Shown piece after piece: positions 9,570 to 29,100 of a stretch of 64,000 nucleotides of DNA (within the stretch, counting starts at the first letter, position 1; each line of letters opens with the position of its first letter). The notes under the pieces are model-generated. The model was given only the letters and a program-made list of their open reading frames with translations. It did no database searches and was not told where the DNA came from. The stretch covers positions 1 through 64,000 of the forward strand of contig JAQGKD010000069.1 of NCBI GenBank assembly GCA_028290285.1, written 5' to 3'. Origin of the DNA: Hyphomicrobiales bacterium. GTDB lineage: Bacteria > Pseudomonadota > Alphaproteobacteria > Rhizobiales > Beijerinckiaceae. A program made the position numbers and the translations under genes.

Positions 9570-9882
9570 TCCGCGATCTCCGCGGGTAATGACCGGGGAT
9601 CGGCACTGCCAGGCTGCTCGTAGCTGAAGACCGGGTTCGGGAAGAGCAAGCGTTACCCGAGTTCTCTACACCAGCGGGAAATAACTAAAAAGACCACCTG
9701 CGCGAAGATCCAAGTCCCCCCGGCGGCTGTCGGACAGACTCTTCCGCCCTGTTTACCTGAAGTTCTTAATGAACGCAGGTAAGGTTAAAAATATACGAAA
9801 CGAACCGAATCATGTTGCGCTCCCAGGTAAATTTACCTCGTATGGCATGATTGAACAAAAAATAATTCCGCCGGGGAAGACA

Positions 9883-10413
9883 ATGCGCGAAGTTTACGCA
9901 GTTCTATTTTGCATCATCCCTTTGTCATACGGGATCGCTGGTACTAAAAGTGAAAACTATCAGTATTCCGTTATAGCAAGGGCCGCGAAAGACGTTGTCG
10001 ACGACCTGTCGACATTGATTTCAAAAGAGATCATACTTACGCACCCATTGAATTTGAATATAAAGAACTGGTCCGTTTTTGGAACCGAGGGAGAGATCGT
10101 CAGCCATTTCTCGGCTAGCCAAAATATATTTTACAACTACGACGGTGTTAAGTACGAGCTGACGCCACCCTCTGCTGCTACCCTCAAGGTCTTCAGCCCT
10201 GCTTCAATAACGAAGCCCGATCTTATTAAAAAGTTACACGTAATTTTTCCAAGATTTTCTGAACTGTCGGTTTCTGCAAAAGACGACCTCGTGATTGTCA
10301 GGGGCTCCGACAACTTCGTGAATATTGCAGGAAAGATTATTGAGACCAAGCCACGAAACGAGCTTGAGGTTGTTTCTTACGGCCGCTACCTCGACTTAAA
10401 CAAGAAAAAATGA
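9883..10413 (+). CDS. Secretin N-domain protein, RhcC1-like (split T3SS secretin)
   Basis: The 176-residue product from the ATG at 9883 begins with a hydrophobic, signal-like segment (residues about 4-20). A GGGGAAG ribosome site precedes this ATG, so I prefer it to the longer reading from 9769. The body matches the N0-N1 layout of type III secretins: a segment equivalent to the L-L-R-D-F..V-V-V-S strand-helix unit, then F-Y-N-Y-D-G in place of the usual W-Y-Y-D-G, and a final D-L-V-I-V-R-G...I-A-G-K-I-I-E unit. In rhizobia the secretin is split, and RhcC1 supplies only these periplasmic domains. No outer-membrane channel part (RhcC2) follows. The sequence is more AT-rich than its surroundings, consistent with acquired DNA. 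The family call is from motif reading alone. Confidence 0.6.
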   Translation: MREVYAVLFCIIPLSYGIAGTKSENYQYSVIARAAKDVVDDLSTLISKEIILTHPLNLNIKNWSVFGTEGEIVSHFSASQNIFYNYDGVKYELTPPSAATLKVFSPASITKPDLIKKLHVIFPRFSELSVSAKDDLVIVRGSDNFVNIAGKIIETKPRNELEVVSYGRYLDLNKKK

Positions 10414-10450: not shown

Positions 10451-11131
10451 ATGCCGATTCATATATTTACCCTGTCAGAATCGAAACCAATCGAACTCAT
10501 GTACTTCCTCATGGGCGCTGACATTGAGTTCGATTTACAGACGTTAGAGGCGTCAACGCCTGTTGATATAGGCCGTAATGAAATAAATATCATCTACCTC
10601 CGCGAAGTCGCAAAATTCAAGCCAAACCTAATTCGGAATCTTGAGAAGCAAAATACATTTGTGATGCTTTCGGCAGCAGACCCGGCGGCGCGGCTTGCTA
10701 TAATAGAATTGGGAGTATCCGAGTGCTTGCATTATCCAACCCAGTTCAAGGAACTGGCTATAAAAATGCGCCGTCGCGCTGAAATCAACGAAAGGTCTAG
10801 CTTGGCAATATATCTGTCAAAATACCTATGCGACGATTTGCAGTTCGATGCGCAAGCCCGGACTCTCAAGAGGGATGGTACACTCGTCAAACTTTCCAAA
10901 ATGGAAAGTCGCATCCTGGCGCTTCTGGCGTCGAGGCCGAATTCCATCGTCAGCAAGGGTTTGATCGATCGGGAGATGGGCCGCGCACGCGCCGCGCTCC
11001 ACAGCCGGGCCATTGATGTTGCAATAAGCTCCGTGCGAGCGCGTTTGCGCAGTGCGGGGGCGCAAAGTGAGCTTATGACCATCAGGAGCATCGGCTATCG
11101 ACTGAATGGTCACTGGGTGAGTAACGCCTGA
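10451..11131 (+). CDS. OmpR-type winged-helix regulator with pseudo-receiver
   Basis: The 226-residue protein has a C-terminal winged-helix DNA-binding domain at about residues 125-222. Its pattern is L-x-K-M-E-x-R-I-L-x-L-L, then A-I-D-V-A-I-S-S-V-R-A-R-L and I-R-S-I-G-Y-R-L, typical of OmpR/PhoB regulators. The N-terminal half has receiver-like length and alternation, but no Asp sits where phosphorylation would occur (N-I-I-Y-L-R-E-V-A). It is therefore probably phosphorylation-independent. Its place at the head of the secretion island suggests it is the local activator, analogous to rhizobial TtsI, which is also OmpR-like. The exact relationship to TtsI cannot be settled here. Confidence 0.75.
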   Translation: MPIHIFTLSESKPIELMYFLMGADIEFDLQTLEASTPVDIGRNEINIIYLREVAKFKPNLIRNLEKQNTFVMLSAADPAARLAIIELGVSECLHYPTQFKELAIKMRRRAEINERSSLAIYLSKYLCDDLQFDAQARTLKRDGTLVKLSKMESRILALLASRPNSIVSKGLIDREMGRARAALHSRAIDVAISSVRARLRSAGAQSELMTIRSIGYRLNGHWVSNA

Positions 11132-12072: not shown

Positions 12073-12519
12073 TCATTTTGAGGAACTTCTCGTCACGATG
12101 AGCCTCAGCAAGCCGCCAGCTGAACCGGTATTTTCGGAATCTGCCGAGCTGACTGAGTATTTCAGAATGCGATTCATGGCGGCTTTGAGATTTACAGCAT
12201 TGTCTTTGATATCAGAGACGCTCCGGCTTCCGAGCGCATCGTAAAAGCTCGCAGCTGCGACGATAAGCATCTTAACTTCGGGCACGTCCTCCGCGTTGAA
12301 TGTCGGCCGTTGCTGAAAAACCTGGCTTTTCAAAGTCACGAGGGTATCCAGCTCCCGCTTGTCGATGGAGCTGGAAATCAAAACGAACATCTGTGAGAGC
12401 GCGGCGGCCTTCAGCCGCATATCAGCGCCCGGGAAACGTGCTCCTAGTTTGAATAGGCCCCTCGATGTCGCCAGCGCGCCAGATCGAGAACGTGGAGAGG
12501 CAATTCTTGGTATCATCAT
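12073..12519 (-). CDS. Unrecognised small protein of the T3SS island
   Basis: A 148-residue product from the ATG-ATG pair at 12517-12519. It has a polar, Arg/Ser-rich first 25 residues and then a helical body (M-R-L-K-A-A-A-L-S-Q-M-F-V-L-I-S-S...). No signal peptide and no motif that I know are present. The gene precedes 11135-12016 on the same strand with a 56-bp gap, so the two probably form an operon read away from the secretion genes. It could be a chaperone or substrate, but nothing in the sequence proves that. Confidence 0.4.
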   Translation of the reverse strand: MMIPRIASPRSRSGALATSRGLFKLGARFPGADMRLKAAALSQMFVLISSSIDKRELDTLVTLKSQVFQQRPTFNAEDVPEVKMLIVAAASFYDALGSRSVSDIKDNAVNLKAAMNRILKYSVSSADSENTGSAGGLLRLIVTRSSSK

Positions 12520-13478: not shown

Positions 13479-13579
13479 CTACCCGGCGTCGCAGATTGCG
13501 TGTCGCTGAGTCACTGAAAACCGTTTCATTAATTTGTTGTTTAGAAGAGTAGATTTGTTCCCGTGTTGCGAGTTTGAAA

Positions 13580-14563
13580 ATGTCCTTTTCCATAGAAATA
13601 TACGAAAATAAAAAGCTGATCAGCACGCACGTGGTCAGGGACGCTCGCTTCACCGTCGGTTCGGACCTGGAATGCGACCTTATTGTTTCGACCGCACCCA
13701 AGCATTGGTTTACTTGCACTTATGATCTCACGACGGAAGACCTGAAGACGCTGCCGGAGTCCCCGCTTTGCCGCATGAATGGCAAAGCAAACGGCAACGG
13801 ACAGGGGTCGGCTGGCAAGGCTGAGATCGGCATGGATGGTCATAACCTCAGGGCCATCGTTAAGCCTGTCTCCATCAAAAGTGCCGCCCTCCGGGCCACG
13901 GCCCTGAGGGCAATTTCAGGCGTGGACCTGACCCTAAGGAAATTTGGCGCGGGTTTGACGGGCGTCAGGGGTATGTCTTCGCGGAAGCTTGGTTTCACGG
14001 GTTGCGCACTCGCCATATGCGTCAGCGTCGCAGCGTTGCTGAATGGTTCGATCTCTGTTCCCGCCAGCACCAAACGCGAAACAAGCGCCCTCAACACGCG
14101 CGGTATGGCCTCGGATACATCAAGGGCCGCTCCCCTTGAATACAGGTCACCTCTGCGGGAAGGTACGGGCGAGAGCCGCTCTGTGGCCGCGCAAGCCGGG
14201 AGGACACTGCACGAACGCTTCACGCGCACGGGCCTGGGCGACAAGGTGCAGATTACGCAGGAAGGCTCACAACTCAGCATTAGCGGGGTTGTGTCTCCTC
14301 AGGAATTACTGACCGTCCGGGAACTCGTCGATGACCTCAAGAAGTCAACCGGCGTCAAGATCGACAACCTGAGCCAGACAAAATCCACCCTTCCCAAATA
14401 TCAGGTTGGGGCTTTCGGCCTGAGCCCACAGTTCATCGTTCTTGCAGACGGCCGCCGGGCGTTCCCCGGCGACCTCCTGCCCGGCGGATGGCAACTCTTG
14501 TTGGTTGGCAGCCACGAAATAGAAATCGAACGCAGTGGCCAGAAGGCCAAAGTCGCTTTTTGA
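13580..14563 (+). CDS. sctD: SctD, outer inner-membrane ring component (FHA/BON protein)
   Basis: A 327-residue bitopic protein. The N-terminal FHA-like cytoplasmic domain (about 1-100) opens with the beta pattern S-I-E-I-Y-E-N-K-K-L...F-T-V-G-S-D. A transmembrane helix spans about 138-160. The periplasmic part carries one BON/ring-building motif (about 205-262, Q-I-T-Q-E-G-S-Q-L-S-I-S-G-V-V). SctD and SctJ form the inner-membrane rings of the injectisome. The length is shorter than classical SctD (about 400) and closer to rhizobial Y4yQ-type proteins. An in-frame TTG at 13574 would add two residues; the ATG at 13580 is the simpler start. Confidence 0.8.
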   Translation: MSFSIEIYENKKLISTHVVRDARFTVGSDLECDLIVSTAPKHWFTCTYDLTTEDLKTLPESPLCRMNGKANGNGQGSAGKAEIGMDGHNLRAIVKPVSIKSAALRATALRAISGVDLTLRKFGAGLTGVRGMSSRKLGFTGCALAICVSVAALLNGSISVPASTKRETSALNTRGMASDTSRAAPLEYRSPLREGTGESRSVAAQAGRTLHERFTRTGLGDKVQITQEGSQLSISGVVSPQELLTVRELVDDLKKSTGVKIDNLSQTKSTLPKYQVGAFGLSPQFIVLADGRRAFPGDLLPGGWQLLLVGSHEIEIERSGQKAKVAF

Positions 14564-14599: not shown

Positions 14600-16576
14600 A
14601 TGACGAATCCACTCAGGCGATTCACCACGGCCGAGACTGCGCTGCCACTCCTGGTCCTGCTATCGATCGCCAGCATGATATTGCCGATGCCGAGCTATAT
14701 CATTGACACGATGGTCGCGTTCAATTTGTTCATCGCCATATTTATTCTTTTGGCTACCATCAACGTCGTCAACATCCTAAATCTCACGACCTTTCCGTCC
14801 ATGTTGTTACTCACGACGATCTTTCGTCTCGCAGTAAGCATCAGCACAACCCGCGCCATCCTTTCCAAAGGGGACGCCGGCGGTATTGTGAAAAGTTTCG
14901 GCGAATTCGTTGTCGGGGACAATCTGGTCGTCGGTCTTGTGGTTTTTCTGGTCGTTGCCATCGTCCAGTTCATGGTCATCACCAAGGGCGGTGAGCGTAT
15001 CGCCGAGGTAACCGCGCGCTTCACCCTCGATGCATTGCCCGGAAAGCAAATGAGCATCGACGCGGATTTGCGCAATGGCGATCTGACGAAAGAGGCCGCC
15101 AAACAGCGCCGTCAACGGCTTGAGCAGGAAAGCCAGTTTTTCGGCTCGATGGATGGCGCCATGCGCTTCGTGAAAGGCGATTGCATAGCCTCGATGCTGA
15201 TCGTCTGTGTCAACCTGATCGGCGGTCTCTTGATCGGCACGATGATGCTCGAATTGTCGACCGAAAAAGCGACCCACCTGTTTCTCGTCCTCAGCATCGG
15301 TGACGGACTTGTCGCCCAAATTCCGTCAATTCTTTCGACGCTGGCTGCAGGCATCCTGACGACCCGCATCACACAGGAAGAGGAAAAGGGCGGCCTCGGC
15401 TTCGATATCGTCGGGCAGTTCTCAGGAGAGCGCAAATCGATGTGGGCTGCGGCGGGCGCCATTGGCGGTCTTGGCCTGATCCCCGGGTTTCCTGCGCTCG
15501 TTCTACTGCCGTTAGCGGGACTGATCGGCGGAGCTCTTTTGTACACCGGCGCATTGCGTTCAAAAGCCAAGAAGGAGGCGATGGCGGAGACGCCTGGTTC
15601 GGCCCTCGCCGGCGCCGTTCAGAAGAACGCTTCCCTGCCAGCAGCCAAATTCAGCGATCCCCTCGTCATTGAATGTCAGCGGGCAACGTTTGACCGGCTG
15701 AACGCCCTTCAGATCGGCGAAAGTCTGGCGGATGCGGTGCAAAACATCGCCAACCGGCTGGGATGTGGCGTTCATCTGCCAAAATGGAGTGTTCTCGAGA
15801 CCGCGCCCCCCGCAGCCCTGTCGATCGTCGTCGATGGTGTGCATGCCAAAGTACTTCACATGGCGGATGGCCAAACCCGCGAGCAGATTGTCAGGGCCAT
15901 TGCTGAAGAAATGGGGCGTCAATCGCCAAAAACCTTCGGGATCGATGACGCCTCGCTCTGGCTTGACGCTCAGACGCGCCAGTCTCCGCGTCTGGTGGAG
16001 TTGGTTCAGCAGCAAATTCCACTTCAGACCCTCTCTGAAGTTTTATGCAGGCTGCTGAAGGAAGGTGTTTCCATAACACATGCCCGGACGATGCTCTCCG
16101 AATTGCTCAACAGCATTTCGCACCGCTTCGGTTCGGAAGAATTACTGGGAGATGCGCGTGTCGCCCTGGCACCACAGATCTTGTCAGGTTTGGTCGATGA
16201 GAAGGGAAGCATTGCTGTCCTTGAATTGCATCGGGACAGCCTGCAGGCTTTGGAAGCCGCGCTGCGGGACCCTGAAAATCTCACGGATTTTGATGGGCAG
16301 GAGAACAATCTGGCAGACGCGGCGGCCCAGATAGACAAGGCGCTCAGGAGCTACCAACTCGCGTATCCGCGCATTGCAATCAGCGCACCTGCATCGATAC
16401 GTGCTCGACTTTGGAATCTGCTCTTCGAACACGGAATTCATGTGCCGGTCCTCAGCCATCCGGAGCTTGAACATGCAAAGGACATCCGGAAGCTGGGCCC
16501 ACTCAAAATAGATCTGCCTTTTGCAGCATCGGCACCGAATAATGATTGGAAAAACAGCTTCGAGGAGGCGTTTTGA
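14600..16576 (+). CDS. sctV: SctV, export gate protein (FHIPEP family)
   Basis: At 658 residues this is near the family length. The N-terminal half (about 1-325) holds seven to eight membrane helices. The diagnostic cytoplasmic loop A-R-F-T-L-D-A-L-P-G-K-Q-M-S-I-D-A-D lies near residues 138-156. The C-terminal cytoplasmic domain (about 345-658) forms the nonameric ring that receives chaperone-substrate complexes. It is the rhizobial RhcV equivalent. The gene follows sctD by 36 bp and overlaps the next small gene by one base (TGATG). No defect is visible. Confidence 0.96.
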   Translation: MTNPLRRFTTAETALPLLVLLSIASMILPMPSYIIDTMVAFNLFIAIFILLATINVVNILNLTTFPSMLLLTTIFRLAVSISTTRAILSKGDAGGIVKSFGEFVVGDNLVVGLVVFLVVAIVQFMVITKGGERIAEVTARFTLDALPGKQMSIDADLRNGDLTKEAAKQRRQRLEQESQFFGSMDGAMRFVKGDCIASMLIVCVNLIGGLLIGTMMLELSTEKATHLFLVLSIGDGLVAQIPSILSTLAAGILTTRITQEEEKGGLGFDIVGQFSGERKSMWAAAGAIGGLGLIPGFPALVLLPLAGLIGGALLYTGALRSKAKKEAMAETPGSALAGAVQKNASLPAAKFSDPLVIECQRATFDRLNALQIGESLADAVQNIANRLGCGVHLPKWSVLETAPPAALSIVVDGVHAKVLHMADGQTREQIVRAIAEEMGRQSPKTFGIDDASLWLDAQTRQSPRLVELVQQQIPLQTLSEVLCRLLKEGVSITHARTMLSELLNSISHRFGSEELLGDARVALAPQILSGLVDEKGSIAVLELHRDSLQALEAALRDPENLTDFDGQENNLADAAAQIDKALRSYQLAYPRIAISAPASIRARLWNLLFEHGIHVPVLSHPELEHAKDIRKLGPLKIDLPFAASAPNNDWKNSFEEAF

Positions 16577-16787: not shown

Positions 16788-17240
16788 ATGACAGATGCAC
16801 TTATTAGTCCAGCTGCTTTTAATTTTTCCGATGCTGCGAAACTTGGGACAGAGGCTGCGGGAATGGTCAGCCCTTCGACACAGCAAAGCTTTCAGCTCCA
16901 ACAGTCAGCTCAGGTCAATGCCGCTGCCCCGACCGGCGCGCTTCAGCCAGCCAGCGTCACGCAACCTGTGTCACCGGCGAGGGATCTGAGCCATCTGTTG
17001 GACGTGTTCAAATCCCTGGTACCGAAACACGACCTGAGCACGTCATCCAGCCTCGGTACGAAAGCTACGTCCGCCGGCAGCCCGTCAACGGTGCAGGAGA
17101 AGGTCGAGATGCCTCCTCAGCTGGCGGAAGCGCTGGACGAACTCAAGAACGCTTCTGCCCGCGCCATCGTACCGGGGGTTGTCGTCACCGCCCTTTCATC
17201 AACGACGTCCTCGTTAAAGCGAATTCAACAGGGGCAATGA
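16788..17240 (+). CDS. sctI: NolB/SctI-like inner rod candidate
   Basis: A 150-residue, Ala/Ser/Gln-rich protein without signal peptide. The C-terminal 45 residues form a helix ending S-S-L-K-R-I-Q-Q-G-Q, resembling the end of YscI/SctI inner-rod proteins. The rest is low-complexity and probably flexible. It sits immediately before sctJ and overlaps it (ATGA), which is the position of nolB in rhizobial type III operons. The assignment rests on position plus this C-terminal pattern; sequence identity to NolB is not demonstrable by eye. Confidence 0.6.
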   Translation: MTDALISPAAFNFSDAAKLGTEAAGMVSPSTQQSFQLQQSAQVNAAAPTGALQPASVTQPVSPARDLSHLLDVFKSLVPKHDLSTSSSLGTKATSAGSPSTVQEKVEMPPQLAEALDELKNASARAIVPGVVVTALSSTTSSLKRIQQGQ

Positions 17241-17950
17241 CGATGATCAGCAAGTCTTTGACACGTGTTCTCGCAGCAGTTGCACTGGTCGCTTTGTCGG
17301 GATGCGGCGACAACCTCTACAACGGCCTGACCGAGCGGGACGCCAATGAAATGGTGGCCGTCTTACTGGACGCGCAAGTGCCCGCCACCCGCGTCGCAGG
17401 GGAAAATGGCCATTACAGCATCAAGATCGACAAAAGCAGTTTCTCGGTGGCGGTAAAGTTGCTCTCGAATGCCGGCTATCCGAGAGACAGCTTCAAGTCT
17501 ATCGACGATGTTTTTCCGGGCGGCAAGCTCATGCAATCGCCTCTGGAGCAGCGCGCCCGCTTCGCTTTTGCACTGTCGCAAGACCTCAGCCGCAGCGTCT
17601 CGGCCCTGCGCGGCATCAGCTTTGCGCGCGTCCATATCGCACTGGCCCAGTTCGACCTGCGGGGCACCGTGATCTCGCCTGCATCCGCTTCTGTGATCAT
17701 TCGTTATGGAGAGTCAGCCGAACTTACCGAGATCGTCGCCCAGACACGGGAGATTGTAGCGAGTGGCGTGGAGGGATTGGCATCCGAAAACGTCAAGATT
17801 CCAGACGGCAGCACTGGCTGTTTCTCCTGGCCGCTTTTCGGCGACTGGTGTTGCAGTCCGTGGCGGCGAGAGCTCCCCAGACCGATCTGGATCGGCGAGT
17901 GCGCTCGTGCGTCGAGCGCGGCGGATCGGGCCAGGATCAGCGCAATCTGA
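17237..17950 (+). CDS. sctJ: SctJ inner-ring lipoprotein with aberrant C-terminus
   Basis: The product has a lipoprotein signal peptide with a lipobox ending L-S-G-C (Cys23). Both ring-building domains of the YscJ/RhcJ (NolT) family follow, with typical segments L-Y-N-G-L-T-E-R-D-A-N-E-M and S-P-L-E-Q-R-A-R-F-A-F-A-L-S-Q-D-L-S. Family resemblance stops at E-N-V-K-I (about residue 191). The last 46 residues are Trp/Arg/Pro-rich and look like read-through of another frame. The usual C-terminal transmembrane helix is missing. EscJ-type proteins also lack that helix, so function is not excluded. The reading frame overlaps the next gene by 103 bp, unlike the 4-bp overlaps elsewhere, so a deletion or frameshift near 17800-17850 is likely. 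Confidence 0.8.
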   Translation: MTMISKSLTRVLAAVALVALSGCGDNLYNGLTERDANEMVAVLLDAQVPATRVAGENGHYSIKIDKSSFSVAVKLLSNAGYPRDSFKSIDDVFPGGKLMQSPLEQRARFAFALSQDLSRSVSALRGISFARVHIALAQFDLRGTVISPASASVIIRYGESAELTEIVAQTREIVASGVEGLASENVKIPDGSTGCFSWPLFGDWCCSPWRRELPRPIWIGECARASSAADRARISAI

Positions 17951-18390
17951 TCGAAGAACTGCAGAAGGCGCATGGACTGCCCACCCCGACTGAGTCGTGT
18001 CTTCCAGCACTTAGACTCGTCCTTGGCAGCGATGGTGTTAGAAACCGGACGGAGGCCGCAGTGGGCATCGCGTATTTTTTGTCGGGCCAGCCGCAGGGGA
18101 TTGTGAAAACAAAACTTGCTCCCTTCATTGCGCATTTCGGTGGAGACGCGGTGGGCTTCGCCCTTGAACAATCGGACCTCGTGATGGGCCTGCCGAAATT
18201 CGAACTCGAGGTTGCATCGGCGGTGAATGCCGGACGGTTCGGGGTCGATCTCTGGCTCCAGAGAGACACCGCCCTCGGTCCCTGGCTTGCAATGACGAAG
18301 ACCTTGATCGCCGATCAACATTATTCCGCAGGCAGGTTATGCGAGCTGACAAGACGGACCGTACACACATTTGAAGGAAGCGCGTCATGA
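17848..18390 (+). CDS. sctK: SctK (NolU-type) sorting-platform protein, N-terminus uncertain
   Basis: About 180 residues from the GTG at 17848. Features matching SctK/NolU are the segment L-P-A-L-R-L-V-L-G-S-D-G-V-R-N-R, the later G-P-W-L-A-M motif and its place between sctJ and sctL. SctK links the cytosolic sorting platform to the inner-membrane ring. Family members are about 200-210 residues, so the N-terminus may be short or lost. The frame is open far upstream inside sctJ and gives no clear start. This fits the view that the sctJ-sctK junction is damaged or fused. The end overlaps sctL by 4 bp. Confidence 0.55.
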   Translation: MLQSVAARAPQTDLDRRVRSCVERGGSGQDQRNLIEELQKAHGLPTPTESCLPALRLVLGSDGVRNRTEAAVGIAYFLSGQPQGIVKTKLAPFIAHFGGDAVGFALEQSDLVMGLPKFELEVASAVNAGRFGVDLWLQRDTALGPWLAMTKTLIADQHYSAGRLCELTRRTVHTFEGSAS

Positions 18391-19031
18391 CCCTGATACC
18401 GCGTGCCAAGTTCGAATCCCGGTACAAACTGGCTGATTTCGTCATGGATGCAGCCTCTCCCCCGACATCGAACATTTCTCCACCCGCCGTCGGTGAGAAG
18501 CAGGAAACGACTCAGCGCGCCAAGGACTTCGTGGACGATCATTTCCAGGATCAAATCCGGGAGGAGGTGAACCGCCGCTTTGCCGAAGCCGCCCAAAGAG
18601 GCTTGGCCAAAGGCACTGCCCAGGGCCGCGACATATACGTCGAACAGATCGCAACCCTCATCAAGGAACTGGACGCGCAGGGGCAGCACCTGACTGGCCA
18701 GCTCACCAATACTGTGACCGAGGCTATTCGTGTGGCCTTTGGCCTGCTCGATCCCGTCGACGCACCACGCGCCGCCATTGAACAGGTTTTAAGCCGCCAG
18801 GGTTATCGGCAGAACGTCTCCGTGATGATTTGCCCAGCCGATGTCGCAGACCTTGAGGCCTATGGCCGCGGCAAGGCCGATGCGACCGGTGCAGTGGGAT
18901 GGCGCGTGATGGCCGATCCAGATCTTCTGCCGGGGGAAGTCATCGTCGAGAGCATTCTGGGTCGTGTGCACGTCGGCCTGGCTGCCCAGGCAAATCACGC
19001 CGTGGAAATGGTCAGTGGTGTTCTGGAATGA
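18387..19031 (+). CDS. sctL: SctL (NolV-type) ATPase stator/regulator
   Basis: A 214-residue protein with a polar N-terminus, a long coiled-coil (about 55-115, K-D-F-V-D-D-H-F-Q-D-Q-I-R-E-E-V) and a FliH/HrpE-type C-terminal domain. That domain contains the A-D-P-D-L-L-P-G-E-V-I-V-E pattern, characteristic of this family where it resembles the ATP-synthase delta subunit. SctL dimers bind and restrain the SctN ATPase and connect it to SctQ. It overlaps sctK and sctN by ATGA junctions, indicating coupled translation. Confidence 0.9.
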   Translation: MTLIPRAKFESRYKLADFVMDAASPPTSNISPPAVGEKQETTQRAKDFVDDHFQDQIREEVNRRFAEAAQRGLAKGTAQGRDIYVEQIATLIKELDAQGQHLTGQLTNTVTEAIRVAFGLLDPVDAPRAAIEQVLSRQGYRQNVSVMICPADVADLEAYGRGKADATGAVGWRVMADPDLLPGEVIVESILGRVHVGLAAQANHAVEMVSGVLE

Positions 19032-20380
19032 CCCCCATGTGTCTCCTGAACAGCTGGGACCGAATGAGCACCAGGCTCAACCAGATCAACGCGGCGGTCC
19101 AAACCATGCCCCTGGCGCTCTCAGGGCAGCTTGAACAGGTCAAGGGTGCCCTGATCGAGGCCAGAGTGCCCAATGGTGAGATCGGGCATTTATGCTTGCT
19201 GATGGAGCCGGCAACCGGGTTGCGCGGCCGGGCCGAAATTGTTGGCCTGTCAGGCCAGACCGCCTTGCTGGCCCCCCTGGGCCACATGACCGGCCTGTCG
19301 CGCCGGATTGAAATCATCAGTTCACGCCAGCAGCCGCAGTTTGCGGTTTCCGACAATTCGCTTGGTTGCGTCCTTGACTGGAATGGTCGTGTTCAGTCCC
19401 GATTCGCCGGCAGCGCCGATCATCAGGAGCCGGTTTCATTTCTTGATTTGAGGACCGAGCCGCCGCTGGCAGATAAGCGCAAACCGATAGCCACGATTTT
19501 CAAGACCGGGATCCGCACGATAGATGGTCTCTTGACGCTTGGTGAGGGACAACGCATCGGGGTCTATGGCAATGCCGGCGCGGGAAAATCGACCCTGCTT
19601 GAACAGATTGCGACCGGAGCCGACGCCGACGTAATCGTCGTAGGACTCATTGGCGAGCGGAGCCGCGAAGTCGTAGAGCTGGTCGAGAGACTGCAATACC
19701 GAGAGAATGCCTCCAGGATCTGCATCATTGCCGCCACGTCCGATCGCCCGCCCGCCGAAAGGCTGAATGCGGCTTTTGCTGCAACCGCCTGCGCGCAGCA
19801 TTTTCAGGATAAAGGCTTGCGTGTGCTGCTGATCATGGACAGCGTGACGCGCGTGGCCCGCGCGCTGCGCGAAATCGGCCTGGCCCGGGGTGAACCATCG
19901 ACCCGGCGTGGCTTTCCACCTTCCGTATTCGAAAGTCTGCCTAGCCTCTTCGAGCGCGCCGGTTGCTTCCAGAGTGGCTCGATAACCGCACTTTACACGA
20001 TCCTGGTGGAGGGGGAGATCATCGACGATCCTATTGCTGAAGAGACGATGTCCCTGCTCGACGGTCATATTATTTTGTCGAAGACCATCGCAGCGCGGGG
20101 CATCTATCCCGCCATCGATGTTCTGAAAAGCCTTAGCCGCAGCATGAAACAAATTGTAAGCGAGGAGCGATTGCAGGCTACGACGACCTTCCGTGCGCTG
20201 GTCAATGCGCGCGAGGATATCGACATGTTAATCCGGGTTGGTGAGTATCAGAGCGGCCACGACGAGTTTACAGACCGTTCGATTGCCGCTGAGCCCGCGA
20301 TGAAGGCCTTTTTAAGCCAGTCGGACAAGAGCTGCGAATTCGAGGATACGTTGCAGTCCCTTTATGAAATTGCCACATGA
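19028..20380 (+). CDS. sctN: SctN, type III secretion ATPase
   Basis: From the ATG overlapping the sctL stop, the protein has 450 residues, the normal family size; a longer in-frame reading from 18899 would run through sctL and is rejected. It is an F1-beta-like hexameric ATPase. Walker A is G-N-A-G-A-G-K-S (about 181-188), Walker B L-L-I-M-D-S (about 269-274), followed by the conserved R-A-L-R-E-I-G-L-A-R-G-E-P-S-T-R-R-G segment. It unfolds substrates and releases chaperones. The rhizobial equivalent is RhcN. All catalytic elements visible by eye are intact. Confidence 0.96.
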   Translation: MTPMCLLNSWDRMSTRLNQINAAVQTMPLALSGQLEQVKGALIEARVPNGEIGHLCLLMEPATGLRGRAEIVGLSGQTALLAPLGHMTGLSRRIEIISSRQQPQFAVSDNSLGCVLDWNGRVQSRFAGSADHQEPVSFLDLRTEPPLADKRKPIATIFKTGIRTIDGLLTLGEGQRIGVYGNAGAGKSTLLEQIATGADADVIVVGLIGERSREVVELVERLQYRENASRICIIAATSDRPPAERLNAAFAATACAQHFQDKGLRVLLIMDSVTRVARALREIGLARGEPSTRRGFPPSVFESLPSLFERAGCFQSGSITALYTILVEGEIIDDPIAEETMSLLDGHIILSKTIAARGIYPAIDVLKSLSRSMKQIVSEERLQATTTFRALVNAREDIDMLIRVGEYQSGHDEFTDRSIAAEPAMKAFLSQSDKSCEFEDTLQSLYEIAT

Positions 20381-20802
20381 GCGCGAGTACTTTCGCCGAC
20401 CTTCAGGCGCTGGCTGGTCTGCGCTATCGCATCGCACGACTTGGGTTAGCGCGAGCGCAAAAGGCGTTGTGCGAGGTGGACGCCACCTATCAGACGCTCG
20501 ACCGAGAGTCAGTGGCTGTTCACTCCCGCCTGAACGAACCGCTCGTCTTCGACGGCTCTCACAAGCCGATGGAGGCACGAGGTGTGATCCGGAGAAGGCT
20601 TCAGAATTTACAGACGCGAGTTGACGAGCAAAAGGCTGAGGCCGCTTCGCATAAGGAGGAGTGCGAAACAGCCTTACACCGCGCAGCGGCCCTGTCGGTA
20701 CGGCGCGAAGTTAAATATTCCGAGTTTCAGGAATTATCGCGGAAGGACTGTCGTGAAGCAGAGAGAGCCGCGGAGCGCCGCCGCGACACTAACGGGGCCT
20801 GA
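20377..20802 (+). CDS. sctO: SctO-like stalk protein
   Basis: A 141-residue, highly charged, Arg/Glu/Ala-rich protein, almost entirely alpha-helical coiled-coil. This is the expected form of the FliJ-like stalk that inserts into the SctN hexamer and touches SctV. It starts within the sctN stop (ATGA) and precedes sctQ, the place of Y4yJ in rhizobial operons. Sequence conservation in this family is poor, so position and architecture carry the call. Confidence 0.7.
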   Translation: MSASTFADLQALAGLRYRIARLGLARAQKALCEVDATYQTLDRESVAVHSRLNEPLVFDGSHKPMEARGVIRRRLQNLQTRVDEQKAEAASHKEECETALHRAAALSVRREVKYSEFQELSRKDCREAERAAERRRDTNGA

Positions 20803-20819
20803 CAGTACCGTATGACCCA

Positions 20820-22016
20820 ATGCCTTTTCCCTCCAGTGAGCATGCGAGTATGAACATCGAATTGCCGATCCGATCAGATCCAATCAGGCCGTTTCAAGCT
20901 GAGACCTTGAGTGCCACCGACGCCGAGCGTGCGTGTCTTCTGGCACGCAATTTTCGTGAAGGAACCTTGAGTGGCGGGTCGTACGCACTGTCGTTCCTGC
21001 CCATCCTCCACACTAAGCTTTTGGAACAGCCCGAGATATTCGTGATTTCCGGTCAGATAAACGGGGGTCAATGGCAGCTCGAGCTGCCATTGAACGCTTG
21101 CCTGGATTTGATGCAGGACATCGAGCCTCTTCTGATGCCCACTGGCCCCGCGACGATTGCCGAGGCGGCGCGCTGTTTCATTCGCGAACTCGCAATAGGT
21201 AATCTGCCCACCGGTTTACAATCCGGCTTCATGGTCTCTGCTGCAACAAAGGCCGTTCTGCCCGGAGCGAGCCGCTGGCCGTTCCGGGTGCGGCTCGGGG
21301 AGCGTAGCCTGGTCGCAGTTTTGGCGTTAGGAGAAAAGCCCGATTTCCTGATGACACAATACGTAGACGGACTAGATAAGGACGACAGCGATATTAGAAG
21401 CAAAATCCCGTCGGACGCGCGGATACGGATTGCGACCTATCGAACCACTTCGTCCGTGGTGGAGGGTATCGGGGTCGGCGACGTCATTCTCGTGGAAAAT
21501 TTTCGTTGGAACGACTGCAGCATATTAGTGAAAGGCTATATTCAGTTGGATTGTCGCATCGACGGAACCGACATCGCCGTAGAGTCCATTACTGTCCTGG
21601 ATGCCGATTCCGGGCAGCAGGTCGAGACGTTAGAATCCATGGACAGTTTTATTTCTTTTGAAGAGGCAGACCATATCATGCAGGACGACCCGCGGGACGC
21701 TGCCGGCAGCGAGGCGATGCCCGGTCGGATTCTGAATCCAACCGGAACGAGAGATCACCTCCCGGAAGATGAGGAACATGATCTTCCCGGCGGGATCGAC
21801 CTGGATAGGGTCCAGGTGGAAATCGTTTTCGATGCCGGCCGCGTTTCGCTGCCGCTCGTGGCACTAGAAACGATCGCTCCGGGCTATGTATTCCAGCTCG
21901 AAAAGACGGAAGTGGGCCAAGTCTCCATGCTCGTTTCCGGGAAGCACATCGGCAAAGCCGAGCTCGTCGAAGTCGATGGCAGAGCCGGGTTTCGGATCCT
22001 TGAAATTATCAAATAA
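20820..22016 (+). CDS. sctQ: SctQ, sorting-platform/C-ring protein
   Basis: A 398-residue protein ending in a SpoA (FliN/HrcQ) domain at about residues 325-396, with the pattern V-Q-V-E-I-V-F-D-A-G-R-V-S-L-P...L-E-T-I-A-P-G-Y-V-F and ending G-F-R-I-L-E-I. The long N-terminal part is typical of one-piece SctQ/RhcQ. It builds the cytosolic pods beneath the export gate. An in-frame ATG at 20850 would shorten it by ten residues. An acidic linker (about 280-325) separates the two parts. Confidence 0.9.
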   Translation: MPFPSSEHASMNIELPIRSDPIRPFQAETLSATDAERACLLARNFREGTLSGGSYALSFLPILHTKLLEQPEIFVISGQINGGQWQLELPLNACLDLMQDIEPLLMPTGPATIAEAARCFIRELAIGNLPTGLQSGFMVSAATKAVLPGASRWPFRVRLGERSLVAVLALGEKPDFLMTQYVDGLDKDDSDIRSKIPSDARIRIATYRTTSSVVEGIGVGDVILVENFRWNDCSILVKGYIQLDCRIDGTDIAVESITVLDADSGQQVETLESMDSFISFEEADHIMQDDPRDAAGSEAMPGRILNPTGTRDHLPEDEEHDLPGGIDLDRVQVEIVFDAGRVSLPLVALETIAPGYVFQLEKTEVGQVSMLVSGKHIGKAELVEVDGRAGFRILEIIK

Positions 22017-22030
22017 GGTTTTGCGTTCTC

Positions 22031-22663
22031 ATGAGCGGATTAACGCCTCTTCTGACTTTAATGACCTTCGTCGGCCTTATTCCCCTTCTGGCTGTGGTCT
22101 CGACTGCTTTTACGAAGATCACGATTGTTCTGCTGATTGTAAGAAATGCACTCGGCATTCAACAGACACCGCCGAACCTGATCATTTTCTCAATCGCGAT
22201 GATCCTGAGTTTGAACATCATGCAACCGGTGACCACAGCTGCCCTGGCAAGGGTTCCAGTGGAACGCCTTGCCGAAATGCCCGTAGCCCAGGTAACCGCG
22301 GTGGCCACCGAGGCTGCGGAGCCTTTTCGGCAATTCATGATGGACAATTCGGCGCCGGCGTCCCGGGAGATGTTTGCCGAGCACGTGCAGCGCCGCAATC
22401 CTAAGATCACCATTCTCGGCACGGAATATTCCGTCGTCATCCCCGCCTTTCTTCTCGACGAACTGACCAAGGCGTTCAAGACAGGATTTCTGATCTACAT
22501 CCCCTTCATTGCGATAGATTTTATCGTGAGTGCTGTTTTGATTGCGTTGGGCATGCAGATGATTTCGGCGACCGCCGTTGCGACGCCCCTCAAGATTCTC
22601 CTGTTCGTGCAGGTCAATGGATGGGAGCGCCTGTTCGACATGTTGCTTCTGTCTTATAAATGA
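22031..22663 (+). CDS. sctR: SctR, export apparatus protein
   Basis: At 210 residues this is the expected length. It has FliP/YscR family signatures: F-T-K-I-T-I-V-L-L-I-V-R-N-A-L-G near residues 24-39, and a second conserved block I-P-A-F-L-L-D-E-L-T-K-A-F-K-T-G-F-L-I-Y-I-P-F. About four hydrophobic segments are seen. SctR forms the pentameric core of the secretion pore. It follows sctQ by 14 bp and precedes sctS by 7 bp. Nothing unusual is seen. Confidence 0.96.
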   Translation: MSGLTPLLTLMTFVGLIPLLAVVSTAFTKITIVLLIVRNALGIQQTPPNLIIFSIAMILSLNIMQPVTTAALARVPVERLAEMPVAQVTAVATEAAEPFRQFMMDNSAPASREMFAEHVQRRNPKITILGTEYSVVIPAFLLDELTKAFKTGFLIYIPFIAIDFIVSAVLIALGMQMISATAVATPLKILLFVQVNGWERLFDMLLLSYK

Positions 22664-22670
22664 GGTCGTC

Positions 22671-22931
22671 ATGCAATCGGACCTCCTCTTCGATTTTATC
22701 CAGCGCGGTTTTATAGCTACGATTTTCCTAGCGGGACCGCTGTTGCTGATCGCGGCAGCGATCGGGTTTTCCTTCGCACTGTTTCAATCGCTGACCCAGA
22801 TACAGGACCAGGCCCTGCCTCAGGTCGTCAAGATACTGGTGATTGTTCTGGTTCTGTTTTTACTCGGAGGTGTTATGGCAAATCCCTTCGTCGAGTTCAC
22901 AGCCAGCACGTTCAGCCAGGTCGTGCCATAA
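22671..22931 (+). CDS. sctS: SctS, export apparatus protein
   Basis: An 86-residue protein with two membrane hairpin helices. It contains the FliQ/YscS pattern G-P-L-L-L-I-A-A-A-I-G-F-S-F-A-L-F-Q-S-L-T-Q-I-Q-D-Q-A-L-P (about residues 24-52). The ATG at 22671, 7 bp after the sctR stop, gives the correct family size. The stop overlaps the sctT start (TAATG). It wraps around SctR and SctT in the export gate. Confidence 0.95.
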   Translation: MQSDLLFDFIQRGFIATIFLAGPLLLIAAAIGFSFALFQSLTQIQDQALPQVVKILVIVLVLFLLGGVMANPFVEFTASTFSQVVP

Positions 22932-23746
22932 TGCTGTCCTTCGACGCGAACATCATGCAATGGCTCGGTCGGTTCGACCCCTTCGTTCTCCTGACGATTG
23001 CATTGGCCAGCTGTCGCTTTTTTGGTTTTTTCCTGACATTTCCGCTGTTTTCCTGGCTAAATATCACGGGCATCCTGCGTGTCGCTCTAAGTATCGCGCT
23101 TGCGCTCGGCCTTGGTGCTTCGCCTGTGGGCAACAACTTACCCGCCGCCGATGCTCAGGCTTTCGTGTTGCTGGCACTCCTGGCCAAGGAAATCATCCTC
23201 GGTTCTGTCCTCGGCATGTTGTGCGGCCTGCCTATATGGGGCGCCCAGGCTGCCGGAGACATATTGGACGCCTATCGCGGCGCCAATGCTTCGAGCATTT
23301 TCGATCCGCTCAATACGGCTGAAGTATCGGTGATGGGCCAGCTGAATTCCTTTCTGGTCATGAGCTGGCTTGTTTCCTCCGGGGGGCTGCGGATCATTTT
23401 CGACATCCTCTATACGTCGTTTTCAGCTCTCGATATCAATGCCTTCGCGCCGTTGGTCGACCAGAGCCTCATGGCGCTGACGCGACGGTTCATTGGTAGC
23501 ATCGCGGAACTCTCGCTCAGTGTCGCCGCGCCGCTTCTAATCGTCATGCTGATCACCGAACTCGTCATTGGCGCCGTGGGCAGGGTCTCCAAGCAGATGT
23601 CGACGAGTGAACTCAGTTCCATGAGCAAATCGATCGCGGCGCTGCTGTCGCTGCCAATCTATGGTGCCTTCGTCTACACCTTTTCAGAGACTGGTTTTAA
23701 AACCACGGTCACCTCGATCTTCGCCTATGTTCAGGGTTCGCGATGA
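22931..23746 (+). CDS. sctT: SctT, export apparatus protein
   Basis: A 271-residue polytopic protein with FliR/YscT features: several hydrophobic helices, the G-N-N-L-P-A-A-D-A...K-E-I-I-L-G-S-V-L-G region, then Y-R-G-A-N-A-S-S-I-F-D-P. It completes the SctR5-S4-T1 pore complex. Its last 4 bases overlap sctU. The operon position R-S-T-U is exactly that of rhizobial and most other injectisomes. Confidence 0.95.
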   Translation: MLSFDANIMQWLGRFDPFVLLTIALASCRFFGFFLTFPLFSWLNITGILRVALSIALALGLGASPVGNNLPAADAQAFVLLALLAKEIILGSVLGMLCGLPIWGAQAAGDILDAYRGANASSIFDPLNTAEVSVMGQLNSFLVMSWLVSSGGLRIIFDILYTSFSALDINAFAPLVDQSLMALTRRFIGSIAELSLSVAAPLLIVMLITELVIGAVGRVSKQMSTSELSSMSKSIAALLSLPIYGAFVYTFSETGFKTTVTSIFAYVQGSR

Positions 23747-24768
23747 GCCAGGACTCGCCCGAGGAAAAGAAGCATCCGCCATCCCAGCGCCGTCTCGCCG
23801 ACATGCGCAAAAAGGGGCAGATTCCAATTGCCCAGGACATGCGCAGCGCGGGCTCCTTTCTGTTACCCTTCATCGCGCTGGTGGTGCTCGCCGACCGCTT
23901 CTCCAGTGGGCTGCAGGCAATGCTGGTGGAGGCCCTCGACGTGAATGGCGACGCAGATGTCGGCGCAAGTTCCGTCCGCATCCTCTGGAATTCGGCCTTT
24001 TTCAGCCTTGGGATCCTACTTGTCGTGACGTTTCTCGCGGTTTTTCTGGCGTCGATAGTTGATGCTGGCGGCATCGTCATCTCCCCGTCTCGGCTCAAGT
24101 TCAACTTGCAGAAGATCAACCCCTGGCACAATGCAAAAGAGCGATTCAAACTCCGCTCATGGGTGGACATGGGGCTAAGTCTCCTAAAGACAGGTGTTTT
24201 TATTGTATGCGCGACAGCCGTTCTCGCCCGGCATGCAAGCGACATCATGGCGGCTCCCTTTTGTGGCCTGACATGCGTTCTGCCGCTGACCTGGCAGCTT
24301 TTGCTTGAGGTCGGGGCGCTGATTGCTCTCGTTCTATTGGTTTTCGGCGTGCTCGATCTCAAGATTTCGCGGGCACTGTTCGCGCGCGAGAACAAGATGA
24401 CCGATACCGAGATGAAACGTGAACAGAAAGAAGATTTCGGTTCGCCCGAGATCCGGAAAAAGCGGAAGGAATTCCGCAACGAAATGGCCGCAGCTAGTAA
24501 GATTCCCGGGCCCGAACAAGCCGCTTTGATCCTGACCGGCAAGACGGGCGCCGTGGCGCTCTACTACGTCGAAGCGGAGGCCGCCCCGCCCATGGTCATT
24601 GCCAACGTCGATGCGGATCTCGTTGCAGACCTGCTTGAACTCGCGGGTGAACACAGTATCAGCGTCGTGCATGACGACGAACTGGTAGCGAAACTCTCGT
24701 CCACCCGGCGCGGCGACTTCGTGCCGGAGCGCTTGTTTGTCGACGTGGCGAAGGTTTTGGTGACTTAG
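23743..24768 (+). CDS. sctU: SctU, substrate-specificity switch protein lacking NPTH
   Basis: A 341-residue protein with four membrane helices (about 30-210) and a cytoplasmic C-terminal domain. The K-M-T-D-T-E-M-K-R-E linker and A-R-E-N-K segment confirm the FlhB/YscU family. The self-cleaving motif N-P-T-H is absent. The aligned residues 265-268 are T-G-K-T, while the flanking strand A-V-A-L-Y-Y is kept. Family members cleave at N-P to switch from early to late substrates, so this protein should not self-process by the known reaction. The gene ends convergently with the fatty-acid gene, the two stop codons overlapping within 24765-24768. Confidence 0.92.
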   Translation: MSQDSPEEKKHPPSQRRLADMRKKGQIPIAQDMRSAGSFLLPFIALVVLADRFSSGLQAMLVEALDVNGDADVGASSVRILWNSAFFSLGILLVVTFLAVFLASIVDAGGIVISPSRLKFNLQKINPWHNAKERFKLRSWVDMGLSLLKTGVFIVCATAVLARHASDIMAAPFCGLTCVLPLTWQLLLEVGALIALVLLVFGVLDLKISRALFARENKMTDTEMKREQKEDFGSPEIRKKRKEFRNEMAAASKIPGPEQAALILTGKTGAVALYYVEAEAAPPMVIANVDADLVADLLELAGEHSISVVHDDELVAKLSSTRRGDFVPERLFVDVAKVLVT

Positions 24769-26150: not shown

Positions 26151-29100
26151 TCAATATTCCAGAACGGTAAAGCCGCCGACCTTCTTCAGCCGCAATGATG
26201 CCGAGTCATTTAACCGGAGGTCGAGGCTGCGGTCCCATACAACGGCCGTTTCCGCAAGCCGCAGCGAAGGCACGGCCGAAGTGGCCCATGTTTTCGGATT
26301 GGCAACCACATTGGTCCAAGCGACATCAGCCGTAACGAAGGATCGGGGCGCAACAATCATGGTGCCGGCCACGTAGGAAACAACATAGTTGGCAAGCCCA
26401 GTTCCCGTCGCACCCGTCACCTCAAGAGAATAGGTGCCCGACGGTGCAGCGGCCGCCGCGCCGAGGCTGGAGAGCGCGGCTGAAAGAACCCGGTCGCCGT
26501 TCACGAGGCCAGAGGTACGGAATTCAGTTCCTCCGAACGTCGCGGGGCTCCCCGTGACCTTGTCCATATTGTTCGCCGTAACGCTCAGCGCACGCTGGGT
26601 CACGTCGAGATTGGCGCCGGTATAGGTCAGCGCATAGTTCGAAGAGGCCGCCACCGTGCCCTGGCCGATGGCGTAGGACCCGACATTCGAGCTGCCGCTG
26701 GCGGCGGTCGTGAGCGATCCCGACAGGGTGTCGCCGTTGACCAGCCCGAGACCGCCGACCGTATAGCTCAGCGCCGGATTGGCGGCGCCATAGACCCGGC
26801 TCTGCGCATCCGCGCTCACCGTCAACCCGCGCTGGGTCACGTCGAGATTGGCGCCGGTATAGGTCAGCGCATAGTTCGAAGAGGCCGCCACCGTGCCCTG
26901 GCCGATGGCATAGGACCCGACATTCGAGCTGCCGCTGGCGGCGGTCGTCAGCGATCCCGACAGGGTGTCGCCGTTGACCAGCCCGAGACCGCCGAGCGTA
27001 TAGCTCAGCGCCGGATTGGCGGCGCCATAGACCCGGCTCTGCGCATCCGCGCTCACCGTCAACCCGCGCTGCGCCACCGTGAGCGAACCCGCCGTGTAGC
27101 TGATCGCGTAATTGCCCGAGGTCAGGCCCGAGGCCGTCAGCGCGTAGGAGCCCGCATTGACCGCCCCCTGCGCCGCGCCGCCATAGGCCAGCGTGCCGCC
27201 GAGAACCGAGGCCGTCTCGCCGTTGACGAAGCCGGCATAGGTCACCCCGTTGCCGCCGCCGAAGGCCAGACCATCATAGGTCTTGCTCGCATTGGCCGCG
27301 GTCACCCCGAGCGCGGCCTGCGCCACCGTGTAATTCACGCTACTCCCAGCCATCGCATAGCCGAGATCGTTTGCGAGGCCGGTCATCCCAAATGTATAAC
27401 TGCCGGCATTCACGGCCGTGCCGCCAGAAAGAGAGCCCGTCATGACAGGCGTGTCGCCATTGACGGTTCCGCTGGTCGAATAGGTCGGTGCCGTAATCGT
27501 GCCGTCGTAGACGCGCGTCGTGACGCCGCCGGTTGCAATGGTGGCGGTCAGCGTCGGCTGCTCGCGATAAATAATATCGACACCCGCTCCCAGAGCCCGC
27601 GTGTAGCCTGTCGTCGTCCGATTGCTGGCGTAACGGAAGCCGCCTGCCGTTGCGAGGGATGCCGCGCTCGTGCTTCCGGATATGCTGCCGGTGTAGAGCT
27701 TCGCGGTTCCGCCCGCGCCGACAGAGACGCCGCCCGAGCCGCTGAAGCTGATATTGCCGCCGCTCGCGGTGCCCGCGGCTGTGCCGTCGCCGGCCGCCAG
27801 CAGGAGGGCTCCCGAGGACGTATCCGACGTCGAGACATTTTGCAGGACGGAAAGCGCGCCTGTCGCGATGATCTGGCTGCCGGTGGCCGCGGCACTGATC
27901 CCGGCGATGCCGTTGACGCTGCTGATCGTCAGAGCCCCCGTGTTGGCCAATCCGACAGAGCCGCCCGTCGAGGCCGCCGCGAAGGTGCCGATGACATTGC
28001 TATTGAGAAGCGCGATGGAGGCGCCCGCCTGCGCGGACAGATTCGTCGCGGTTATCGAGTCCGACGCACCCTCGCTGATGCCCGCCCCGGCCCGCAGCCC
28101 GATCGTCGAGCCCGACAGCGCGCCGTTGATGGCGACTGTTCCGCCCGCGCCGCCGCTGAAGATACTGAGCGGCGCATTGGCAGCCCAGGCGCGGACATCG
28201 ACTGCGCCCGTCCCGGTCAGCGAGCCGATTCTGATCGACGAGAAGCCGCTCTGGATTGAGGCCAGTTCGGTGGCATCCAGGTTCAGCGTTCCCGACGCAC
28301 CGGTGCCCAGACCGATGCTGGTCGAGGCCGTCATGGGCTGGATGACGAGCGCGCCGCTACCCGAGAAGGCGAAACCCGAAGCCAGCGCGGCGATATCCGC
28401 ATTGACGGTGATCGTCCCCGTGTAGGAGCCCGTCAGAGCCCCGAGACCGACCTGCGCCGTGCCTGCAGTCGCCCACATCCCGCGTGGCGAAGCGTTCTGC
28501 GTTGCGTTGATCGTGATGTCGCCCGAGCCGTTGCTGCGGATACCGGAATTCGCTCCGATCGCGAAGGCGCCTGAGCTCGCGCCCGTGGCCGCGCTCGGCG
28601 CGATGGCGTTGACGGTGATCGTACCGGCCCCGCCCGTCGTCAGGTAGGCGGTGGTGCTCACGTGGACGCCCAACTGAGTGTCGCCGGCGGTGCTGCCGCC
28701 CGTGCCGGAAACAGTGATGTTGCCGCTCGAACTCGTCAGGTAGCTGTTTGAGTAGACAAGCACGCCCCGCTGGAAAGTATTGACTCCGGAGCCGCCGGCC
28801 GTGCCCACGGCAGTGATGTTGCCTGTCGTGGTCAAGACGCTGGAAGTGCTGCTGACATCGACGCCGTTGTTGTCCTGCCCGGCGTAAGATCCGCCGATAC
28901 CCCGCAGCCACACATTGCCCGCGGCCGCCGTGATCGTCGAGCCGTTCAGCAACACGCCGCGTTGTTTGCCGCTGACGCTCGTGCCCATGGCATAGCCGCT
29001 GGTCTGCAAGGCAGCGACGGTCGCGCCGCTGCCGCCCGACAGGGTGACATCGCCACCATTGCTGGTGATCGTTGCCGAGGTCAGCACGATGCCGCCCGCG

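Follow-up and report, generated by a model that had tools for sequence, protein, structure and literature searches.

Self-cleavage at an NPTH motif in SctU, the export-gate switch protein of the type III secretion system (T3SS), is presented as a general feature of these machines (PMC3040844, PMC3504009). The Xanthomonas homologue of the ruler protein SctP, HpaC, binds the NPTH region of the SctU protein HrcU in a manner that needs N264 and P265 (PMC3040844), and efficient cleavage is needed for late substrates (PMC3040844, PMC3504009). In Yersinia, the C-terminal CC part of YscU dissociates and is secreted upon Yop release (PMC3504009). For the rhizobial Rhc systems, PMC3574062 describes an hrpP/yscP-like gene as absent from all subgroups, and a 2014 review gives SctP as missing in rhizobia and leaves two options, a protein with an analogous function or a mechanism that can be dispensed with (PMC3973906). 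Here we consider the SctU of a T3SS cluster within positions 1 to 64,000 of contig JAQGKD010000069.1 from a Hyphomicrobiales bacterium (GCA_028290285.1), a stretch of 64,000 nucleotides referred to as the window. This SctU has no NPTH, and comparison with its relatives suggests that the motif was lost once in the ancestry of the Rhc family.

The gene (23743..24768, + strand) encodes a protein of 341 amino acids with four transmembrane (TM) helices. PF01312 (Pfam) spans residues 7-340 with E 2.7e-62 and TIGR01404 SctU (NCBIfam) spans residues 8-340 with E 6.1e-60, at 203 bits against a curated cut-off of 358; as both cover nearly the whole protein, the reading frame and the protein identity are right, though the protein is divergent. 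It aligns with solved chains of FlhB, SpaS, EscU, and YscU (full-length or C-domain), its start overlaps the end of SctT by 4 bases, and it closes the cluster with the gene order SctR-S-T-U. The loop reads EQAALIL-TGKT-GAVALYY, with T-G-K-T at 24535..24546 (+; residues 265-268), and the CC part, from GAVALYY to the end (24547..24765, +; alignment A2, 55 sequences), follows with no separating cleavage site. The loop is 1 residue shorter than in NPTH proteins. When the alignment is anchored on AVAL, TGKT stands opposite NPTH, and a gap within the loop moves this pairing by one position; neither N-P-T-H nor an Asn-Pro pair is present in either case. Direct reading and alignments thus bear out the preliminary description of this DNA, which had placed T-G-K-T at these residues of an NPTH-less SctU and noted that the following AVALYY strand is kept; its claim of an intact export gate also holds, with SctR, SctS, SctT, SctU, and SctV all present in open reading frames. 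By descent, the protein is SctU, and with NPTH absent it is predicted not to be of the self-cleaving type.

A tree of SctU and FlhB places this protein within a single NPTH-less lineage. It was built on 104 dereplicated rows of 151, with the loop columns dropped, rows at least 82% identical to a kept row left out, and the partial near-copy L046 removed. All but two of the 64 NPTH-less tree rows form one clade with a support of 91 in the Shimodaira-Hasegawa-like approximate likelihood ratio test (SH-aLRT), and 61 of these 62 group with SH-aLRT 99. The NPTH-less rows outside it are Leisingera, on a long branch, and one NPTE sequence; constraining 63 NPTH-less rows together, Leisingera included, changes the log-likelihood by +9.3 relative to the free tree, with an approximately unbiased test p of 0.62. 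NPxH is kept in 40 of the 104 tree rows, comprising 21/21 on the FlhB side and 19/21 of the others outside the clade, and as nearly all rows outside the clade keep it, the direction of change is loss. The clade holds pNGR234a, pNGR234b, and Pseudomonas and Rhizobium etli-type systems, and it covers Rhc-I, Rhc-II, and Rhc-III, names that follow PMC3574062 and PMC3973906, with loci assigned by gene content and named plasmids. The window SctU falls within the 61-row set, and its 5 nearest rows by tree path are all NPTH-less. Its placement there is unsure: a 5-row set at 92 that is drawn open, with an end branch of 1.46. To judge from the sequences sampled, the Rhc T3SS family as a whole is marked by a missing NPTH site. 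The preliminary description had asked whether the altered form is conserved across a clade, and for the absence of the motif it is, clade-wide in these 62 rows.

The spread of the absence was followed in named genomes by a profile scan with alignment A1, and the counts on named loci rest on the best 80 of 469 relatives; a contig scan with the single window protein as query gave no match. NPTH is missing in 73 of these 80 SctU loci, which disposes of the case that this genome is the lone exception among NPTH-bearing relatives. The seven with NPTH are from Klebsiella, Parendozoicomonas, an Oceanospirillales metagenome-assembled genome (MAG), Vibrio, a Rubrivivax MAG, Endozoicomonas, and Roseateles. 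The motif is absent from SctU of pNGR234a, Sinorhizobium fredii CCBAU25509, and S. fredii CCBAU45436, from plasmid systems of M. amorphae, B. guangzhouense, NGR234 (pNGR234b), S. meliloti RRI128, and E. adhaerens, and from those of R. johnstonii and Paracoccus sanguinis. It is present in B. diazoefficiens NK6b, R. gallicum M101, and R. etli IE4803, which group together in a clade of their own, apart from the NPTH-less sequences. Among 299 related genomes, a protein search found non-flagellar SctU relatives at 29-35% identity, and in their alignment NPTH occurs in no T3SS row, with NPTH or NPEH in the FlhB rows. A loop-masked profile, run on loci sampled at the class, order, and phylum levels (roughly the top 30 from each, 77 in all), gives the same division: NPxH is missing in 24/24 matches of at least 270 bits and present in 33/37 at 200-270 bits and 16/16 below 200. 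Below 270 bits, L224 and L235 (TSAN) likewise have no NPxH, and the reading frame of L221 breaks off beyond the CN linker. As separate observations, two alphaproteobacterial SctU proteins (L174 and L175) carry NPTE for NPTH, with N-P kept and His replaced by Glu, and SctU of Paracoccus sp. TOH (L164, 7986-9008) has A-A-P-H at the same place, a possible remnant.

No other motif takes the place of NPTH. The loop count covers 103 NPTH-less rows with a readable loop, near-duplicates included, over the stretch that aligns with 17 residues of the window SctU; the NPTE rows L174 and L175 and Leisingera (L158) were set apart, and L068 and L048 are truncated and have no loop. These rows contain 66 tetrapeptide classes (one class being 3 rows without a pattern match), and TGKT occurs once, in the window, so that TGKT as a conserved replacement motif is rejected; the letters themselves are not what the clade conserves. 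N-P occurs in 0/103 segments, with Asn somewhere in the segment in 37/103. Within subgroups, some residues are fixed: the Rhc-I loop is 1 residue shorter and has an invariant Gly (24/24) with Ala two places on in 22/24, and the Pseudomonas/Stutzerimonas Rhc-II loop is of standard length, with an invariant Gly (12/12) at a place other than that of Rhc-I.

The ruler, too, is not seen at its usual place. Between SctN and SctQ, NPTH-less loci leave 137-1095 bases (median 567; 68 of 89 evaluable, with both matches on one strand), and 67 of these 68 have no room for SctP beside SctO; NPTH loci leave 1324-2083 bases (5 of 13 evaluable). In the window, the gap is 442 bases and holds one gene of 141 amino acids, with no room there for SctP beside SctO. 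The two widest gaps in NPTH-less loci are those of Leisingera and L115 (discussed below). That of Leisingera comes from a partial SctQ match, as its annotation reads SctN-SctO-SctQ with nothing else between. The other loci contain a single small gene there or, as in Rhc-III, none: the annotated SctQ of Rhc-III comes immediately after SctN, and SctO is missing. Mycetohabitans, in which NPTH is present, has an annotated SctP matching HpaP. As HpaC binds the NPTH region, a joint loss of SctP and the cleavage site is coherent, whatever the order of the two losses. The parallel absence of SctP favors the lack of any cleavage-dependent switch. The preliminary description had offered "switches differently" and "never switches" as alternatives, and between these sequence does not decide.

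What remains of SctU downstream of the lost site differs among the subgroups. Median ratios of nonsynonymous to synonymous substitution (dN/dS) in Rhc-I are 0.199 for TM, 0.107 for CN, and 0.186 for CC (24 sequences, 102 of 276 pairs usable), and in Pseudomonas/Stutzerimonas Rhc-II they are 0.224, 0.247, and 0.158 (12 sequences, 52 of 66 pairs). CC is therefore under purifying selection in both, retained even though it is predicted not to be separable. In Rhc-III, SctU has 265-273 amino acids and ends at about the start of the loop, as seen in Rhizobium K102, TAL182, CIAT894, R. leguminosarum, and S. medicae. These CC-less genes (L068 14992-15789, L198 11992-12813, L199 12025-12843, L200 11992-12789, and L202 11992-12789) lie in clusters with other export genes, and no CC remnant was found downstream in 5/5 loci with a profile whose controls gave E 3.5e-34 and 2.1e-25 (both in its training set). 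Their between-species dN/dS is 0.17-0.21, with dS near saturation at 1.3-1.6, and three close pairs with very few changes give 0.33-0.55. By analogy with the dissociation of YscU-CC, a CC-less SctU may be fixed in the post-dissociation state.

Systems of this family are known to work. The T3SS of S. fredii NGR234, whose pNGR234a RhcU has no NPTH, secretes according to the literature, and S. fredii CCBAU25509 and CCBAU45436 release NopA, NopB, NopC, NopD, NopI, NopL, and NopP under genistein, with NopX released only by CCBAU45436 (PMC6865838). In a CCBAU25509 rhcN::Tn5 mutant with lowered downstream expression, including that of rhcU, all Nops were lost except NopA (PMC6865838). NPTH-less systems thus release pilus proteins and effectors from a single culture, and as NGR234, CCBAU25509, and CCBAU45436 all release NopA and NopB along with effectors, the family is not non-functional. 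According to the review, proof of function was limited to Rhc-I clusters as of 2014 (PMC3973906). The possibility raised in the preliminary description that the system is non-functional therefore fails for the family and survives for the system in the window, for which no RhcC2 was found and in which SctJ is short.

Taken together, these results lead us to propose, with a probability of roughly 0.7, that a single ancestral loss removed the SctP/SctU-cleavage switch in the Rhc family and left a cleavage-independent gate. The common ancestor would have lost the self-cleavage loop of SctU, and the absence of this loop and of SctP from its usual place would be two halves of one switch gone, given that HpaC binds the NPTH region in Xanthomonas. 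SctU could then act as an uncleaved gate component, with its four helices and CN linker serving the SctRST gate and with CC, still covalently attached and selected, probably providing a surface for docking or gating. Translocon, pilus, and effector proteins would be exported without a cleavage-dependent early-to-late switch, and any order of export would have to be set by transcription, by chaperones, by SctV, or by the assembly of the pilus. In R. etli-type Rhc-III, CC is lost outright, which would leave the gate permanently like the post-dissociation form. The loss of the loop, its single clade, the lack of room for SctP, the selection on CC in two groups, and the missing CC of five Rhc-III loci are observed; the uncleaved SctU, the missing switch, the role of CC, and a working machine in the window are inferred. 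A stronger version, that a working family discarded the ruler-and-cleavage switch, that its gate never switches, and that Rhc-III shows the C-terminal half of the SctU cytoplasmic domain to be dispensable for the gate, is held more tentatively, at somewhat less than even odds.

Several observations weigh against the proposal of an ancestral loss. Joint release into the medium does not exclude an ordering in time, and the rhcN::Tn5 insertion lowers rhcU expression as well, so that an effect of RhcU is not separable. That RhcU stays whole is deduced from its sequence, and an outside protease could cut it elsewhere. The SctN-SctQ gap was not evaluable in 21/89 NPTH-less and 8/13 NPTH loci, and in L115 (Pseudomonas sp. 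CHM02) the SctN stop at 6152 and the SctQ match at 7167 are 1014 bases apart. Two open stretches on the same strand, of 181 and 176 amino acids, make a second small gene possible in this gap, where other NPTH-less loci have one. SctP sequences diverge very fast (PMC3459982), and rulers can be small, at 208 amino acids in L160; as the absence of SctP was seen at the usual place only, an unrelated ruler elsewhere would be missed. A three-seed profile for SctW matched 0/89 NPTH-less and 4/13 NPTH loci, but it is insensitive, 3 of the 4 being its own seeds, and PF07201 (the HrpJ family) had no match in the genome of the window and none in the control genomes either. For the window itself, the RhcC2 secretin was not found in the assembly, family profiles recognized no needle or translocon gene, SctJ is shortened, and SctU has no close relative, with the selection figures coming from Rhc-I and Pseudomonas Rhc-II.

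The missing RhcC2, the short SctJ, and the lack of a recognized needle or translocon gene also speak for the possibility that the T3SS of the window is decaying or inactive, in which case its SctU would be uninformative on mechanism. The three secretins found in the assembly (contigs C112, C33, and C53) lie, by reading of the open reading frames, two in Flp/Cpa-like contexts and one in a GspD-like context, and SctJ has no C-terminal helix. However, the core genes between SctD and SctU have open reading frames that for the most part follow one another closely, Rhc-III clusters are likewise reported without rhcC2 (PMC3574062), and a loss of NPTH that is clade-wide is no mark of decay in the window. 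The assembly (145 contigs) is 94% complete, with 7% estimated contamination, and a secretin may be missing from it. Decay of the window is a serious contender that we nevertheless consider doubtful.

It is also conceivable that the Rhc systems have an unrecognized ruler or gatekeeper of their own, which binds to the altered loop in an uncleaved SctU and drives the early-to-late switch without proteolysis. A point change in the HrcU C-domain permits late secretion without HpaC (PMC3040844), so conformation can suffice; ruler sequences are poorly conserved; and L115 has room for a second gene. The other 67 of the 68 evaluable loci have no room at the usual position, and the genome of the window yielded no candidate elsewhere for FliK or SctP, its sole Flg_hook match lying in a flagellar cluster with FlhA and with hook, filament-junction, and motor-like reading frames (those other than FlhA named by reading). 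On balance, such a ruler is unlikely. The flagellar cluster itself occupies C62:8000-27000, with FlhA, a FliK-like protein, and hook and motor genes; no flagellar FlhB turned up in the 145 contigs (5.0 Mb) of the assembly, where the window SctU is the sole PF01312 protein.

Alternatively, RhcU could be cut at another site or by another protease, with the switch surviving in altered form. The purifying selection on CC in Rhc-I and Pseudomonas Rhc-II agrees with this, as do the conserved Gly (24/24) and Ala (22/24) of the Rhc-I loop, which a new site might show. Against it, the 66 tetrapeptide classes amount to no clade-wide motif, the N-P pair of known self-cleavage is missing in 103/103 readable rows, and Rhc-III has no CC at all, so that we regard cleavage elsewhere as improbable. 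A sequencing or assembly error hiding N-P-T-H, for which only the 145 contigs and 7% estimated contamination could speak, is rejected as a negligible possibility, as dozens of named genomes, including plasmids recorded complete, have no motif at the equivalent place and the frame continues through the CC domain.

A large clade that includes a model symbiont thus has no cleavage site and, at its usual place, no ruler, and some of its systems are known to secrete; the standard switch is therefore probably not shared by all T3SSs. The loss of the motif is also independent evidence on the question in the 2014 review of whether a ruler analogue exists or none is needed (PMC3973906). Literature searches in an open-access library, with subscription journals mostly outside its coverage, listed no statement of an Rhc-wide loss of NPTH. 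Natural comparisons are now supplied by SctU without a cleavage site in Rhc-I and Rhc-II and SctU without CC in Rhc-III.

The cluster around the window SctU is ordered SctD, V, J, K-like, L, N, O-like, Q, R, S, T, and U, with all genes on the + strand. SctD (Y4yQ-like, 13574..14563) matches TIGR02500 with E 3.3e-14 (52.7 bits, cut-off 86) and PF23893 Y4YQ_C with E 7.5e-6 (26.1 bits, cut-off 27). SctV (14600..16576) matches PF00771 with E 4.2e-152 and, as the best of 16 loci, L068 with E 8.6e-122. A protein of 150 amino acids (16788..17240) has no family match, and its position suggests NolB. SctJ (17237..17950; TIGR02544 E 5.1e-50) has 237 amino acids and no C-terminal TM helix, in an alignment with 8 relatives of 259-313 amino acids (two read stop to stop) that all have this helix. 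The next gene, SctK/NolU-like (17848..18390), matches L068 weakly in phmmer with E 1.2e-4 and L074 with E 0.004; the N-terminal part of its relatives is missing, and together with the short SctJ end this could reflect a deletion or a natural short form. SctL (18387..19031) matches PF06635 with E 5.5e-5, just below the cut-off, L074 with E 2.5e-8, and NolV of pNGR234a with E 5.1e-8. The ATPase SctN (18959..20380, start approximate) matches PF00006 with E 4.8e-77 and PF18269 with E 2.5e-16. The sole gene between SctN and SctQ (20377..20802, 141 amino acids) is named SctO-like from its position and a weak match to TIGR02473 FliJ (E 0.027), with no phmmer match among the 16 loci. SctQ (20820..22016) matches PF01052 with E 1.5e-11 and L068 with E 8.5e-15, SctR (22031..22663) matches L068 with E 1.2e-52, SctS (22671..22931, start picked by eye) matches L125 with E 2.6e-17 (query 22656-22928), and SctT (22931..23746) matches annotated SctT/FliR-type genes, such as that of L068 with E 5.3e-34.

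Upstream of these, a gene at 9769..10413 (+) may encode RhcC1, the N-terminal half of the split rhizobial secretin, and matches L068 20224-20778 with E 2.5e-6 and an annotated type III secretion protein of L065 with E 1.7e-4, with no match in Pfam; the identity of the matched genes as RhcC1 is itself tentative. A candidate cluster regulator of OmpR type follows (10451-11131, +; Trans_reg_C E 3e-12), which also matches reading frames in the T3SS loci L094, L067, and L062, annotated as response regulators in two. Two reading frames beside the cluster (11135-12016 and 12073-12519, both -) have no convincing family, the best match of the first being muconate cycloisomerase with E 0.015; from their position, their products could be components of the translocon or substrates for secretion. 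On the other side of the cluster, two genes past SctU, a reading frame of 4357 amino acids (26151-39224, -) with many near-identical repeats (TLTGANTYTGTTTISAGTL...) looks like a filamentous-haemagglutinin-type adhesin.

The affinity of the whole system was assessed by phmmer against 16 loci. L068 (Rhizobium sp. K102, Rhc-III) is best for SctV, SctQ, SctR, the K-like protein, and the RhcC1-like protein and ties with L074 for SctT; the best matches elsewhere are L128 for SctJ, L125 for SctN and SctS, L074 for SctL and SctU, and L065 for SctD. Filing the window as Rhc-III was withdrawn, as only part of its proteins match Rhc-III best. As CC and an SctO-like gene are present, both of which are missing in Rhc-III, the window is best called a divergent Rhc-family system with probable Rhc-III leanings.

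Comparison with known systems places the window SctU as follows. RhcU of S. fredii NGR234 pNGR234a (Rhc-I) is likewise full-length, with no NPTH, a loop 1 residue shorter, and a single small gene between SctN and SctQ, but its loop letters differ (YRGTAVLIGLRY), and its cluster, for which secretion is established, includes NopX, NolB, and NolW. In Rhc-III of the R. etli/R. phaseoli type, L068 shares the 5-row set of the window on the SctU tree and no rhcC2 is reported, whereas its SctU has no CC and the cluster no SctO, both of which have a counterpart in the window. HrcU of Xanthomonas and YscU of Yersinia belong to PF01312 like the window SctU; they cleave at NPTH, a site that the window SctU does not have. 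Flagellar FlhB also matches PF01312 along its whole length and, unlike the window SctU, has NPxH in all 21 FlhB-side rows of the tree.
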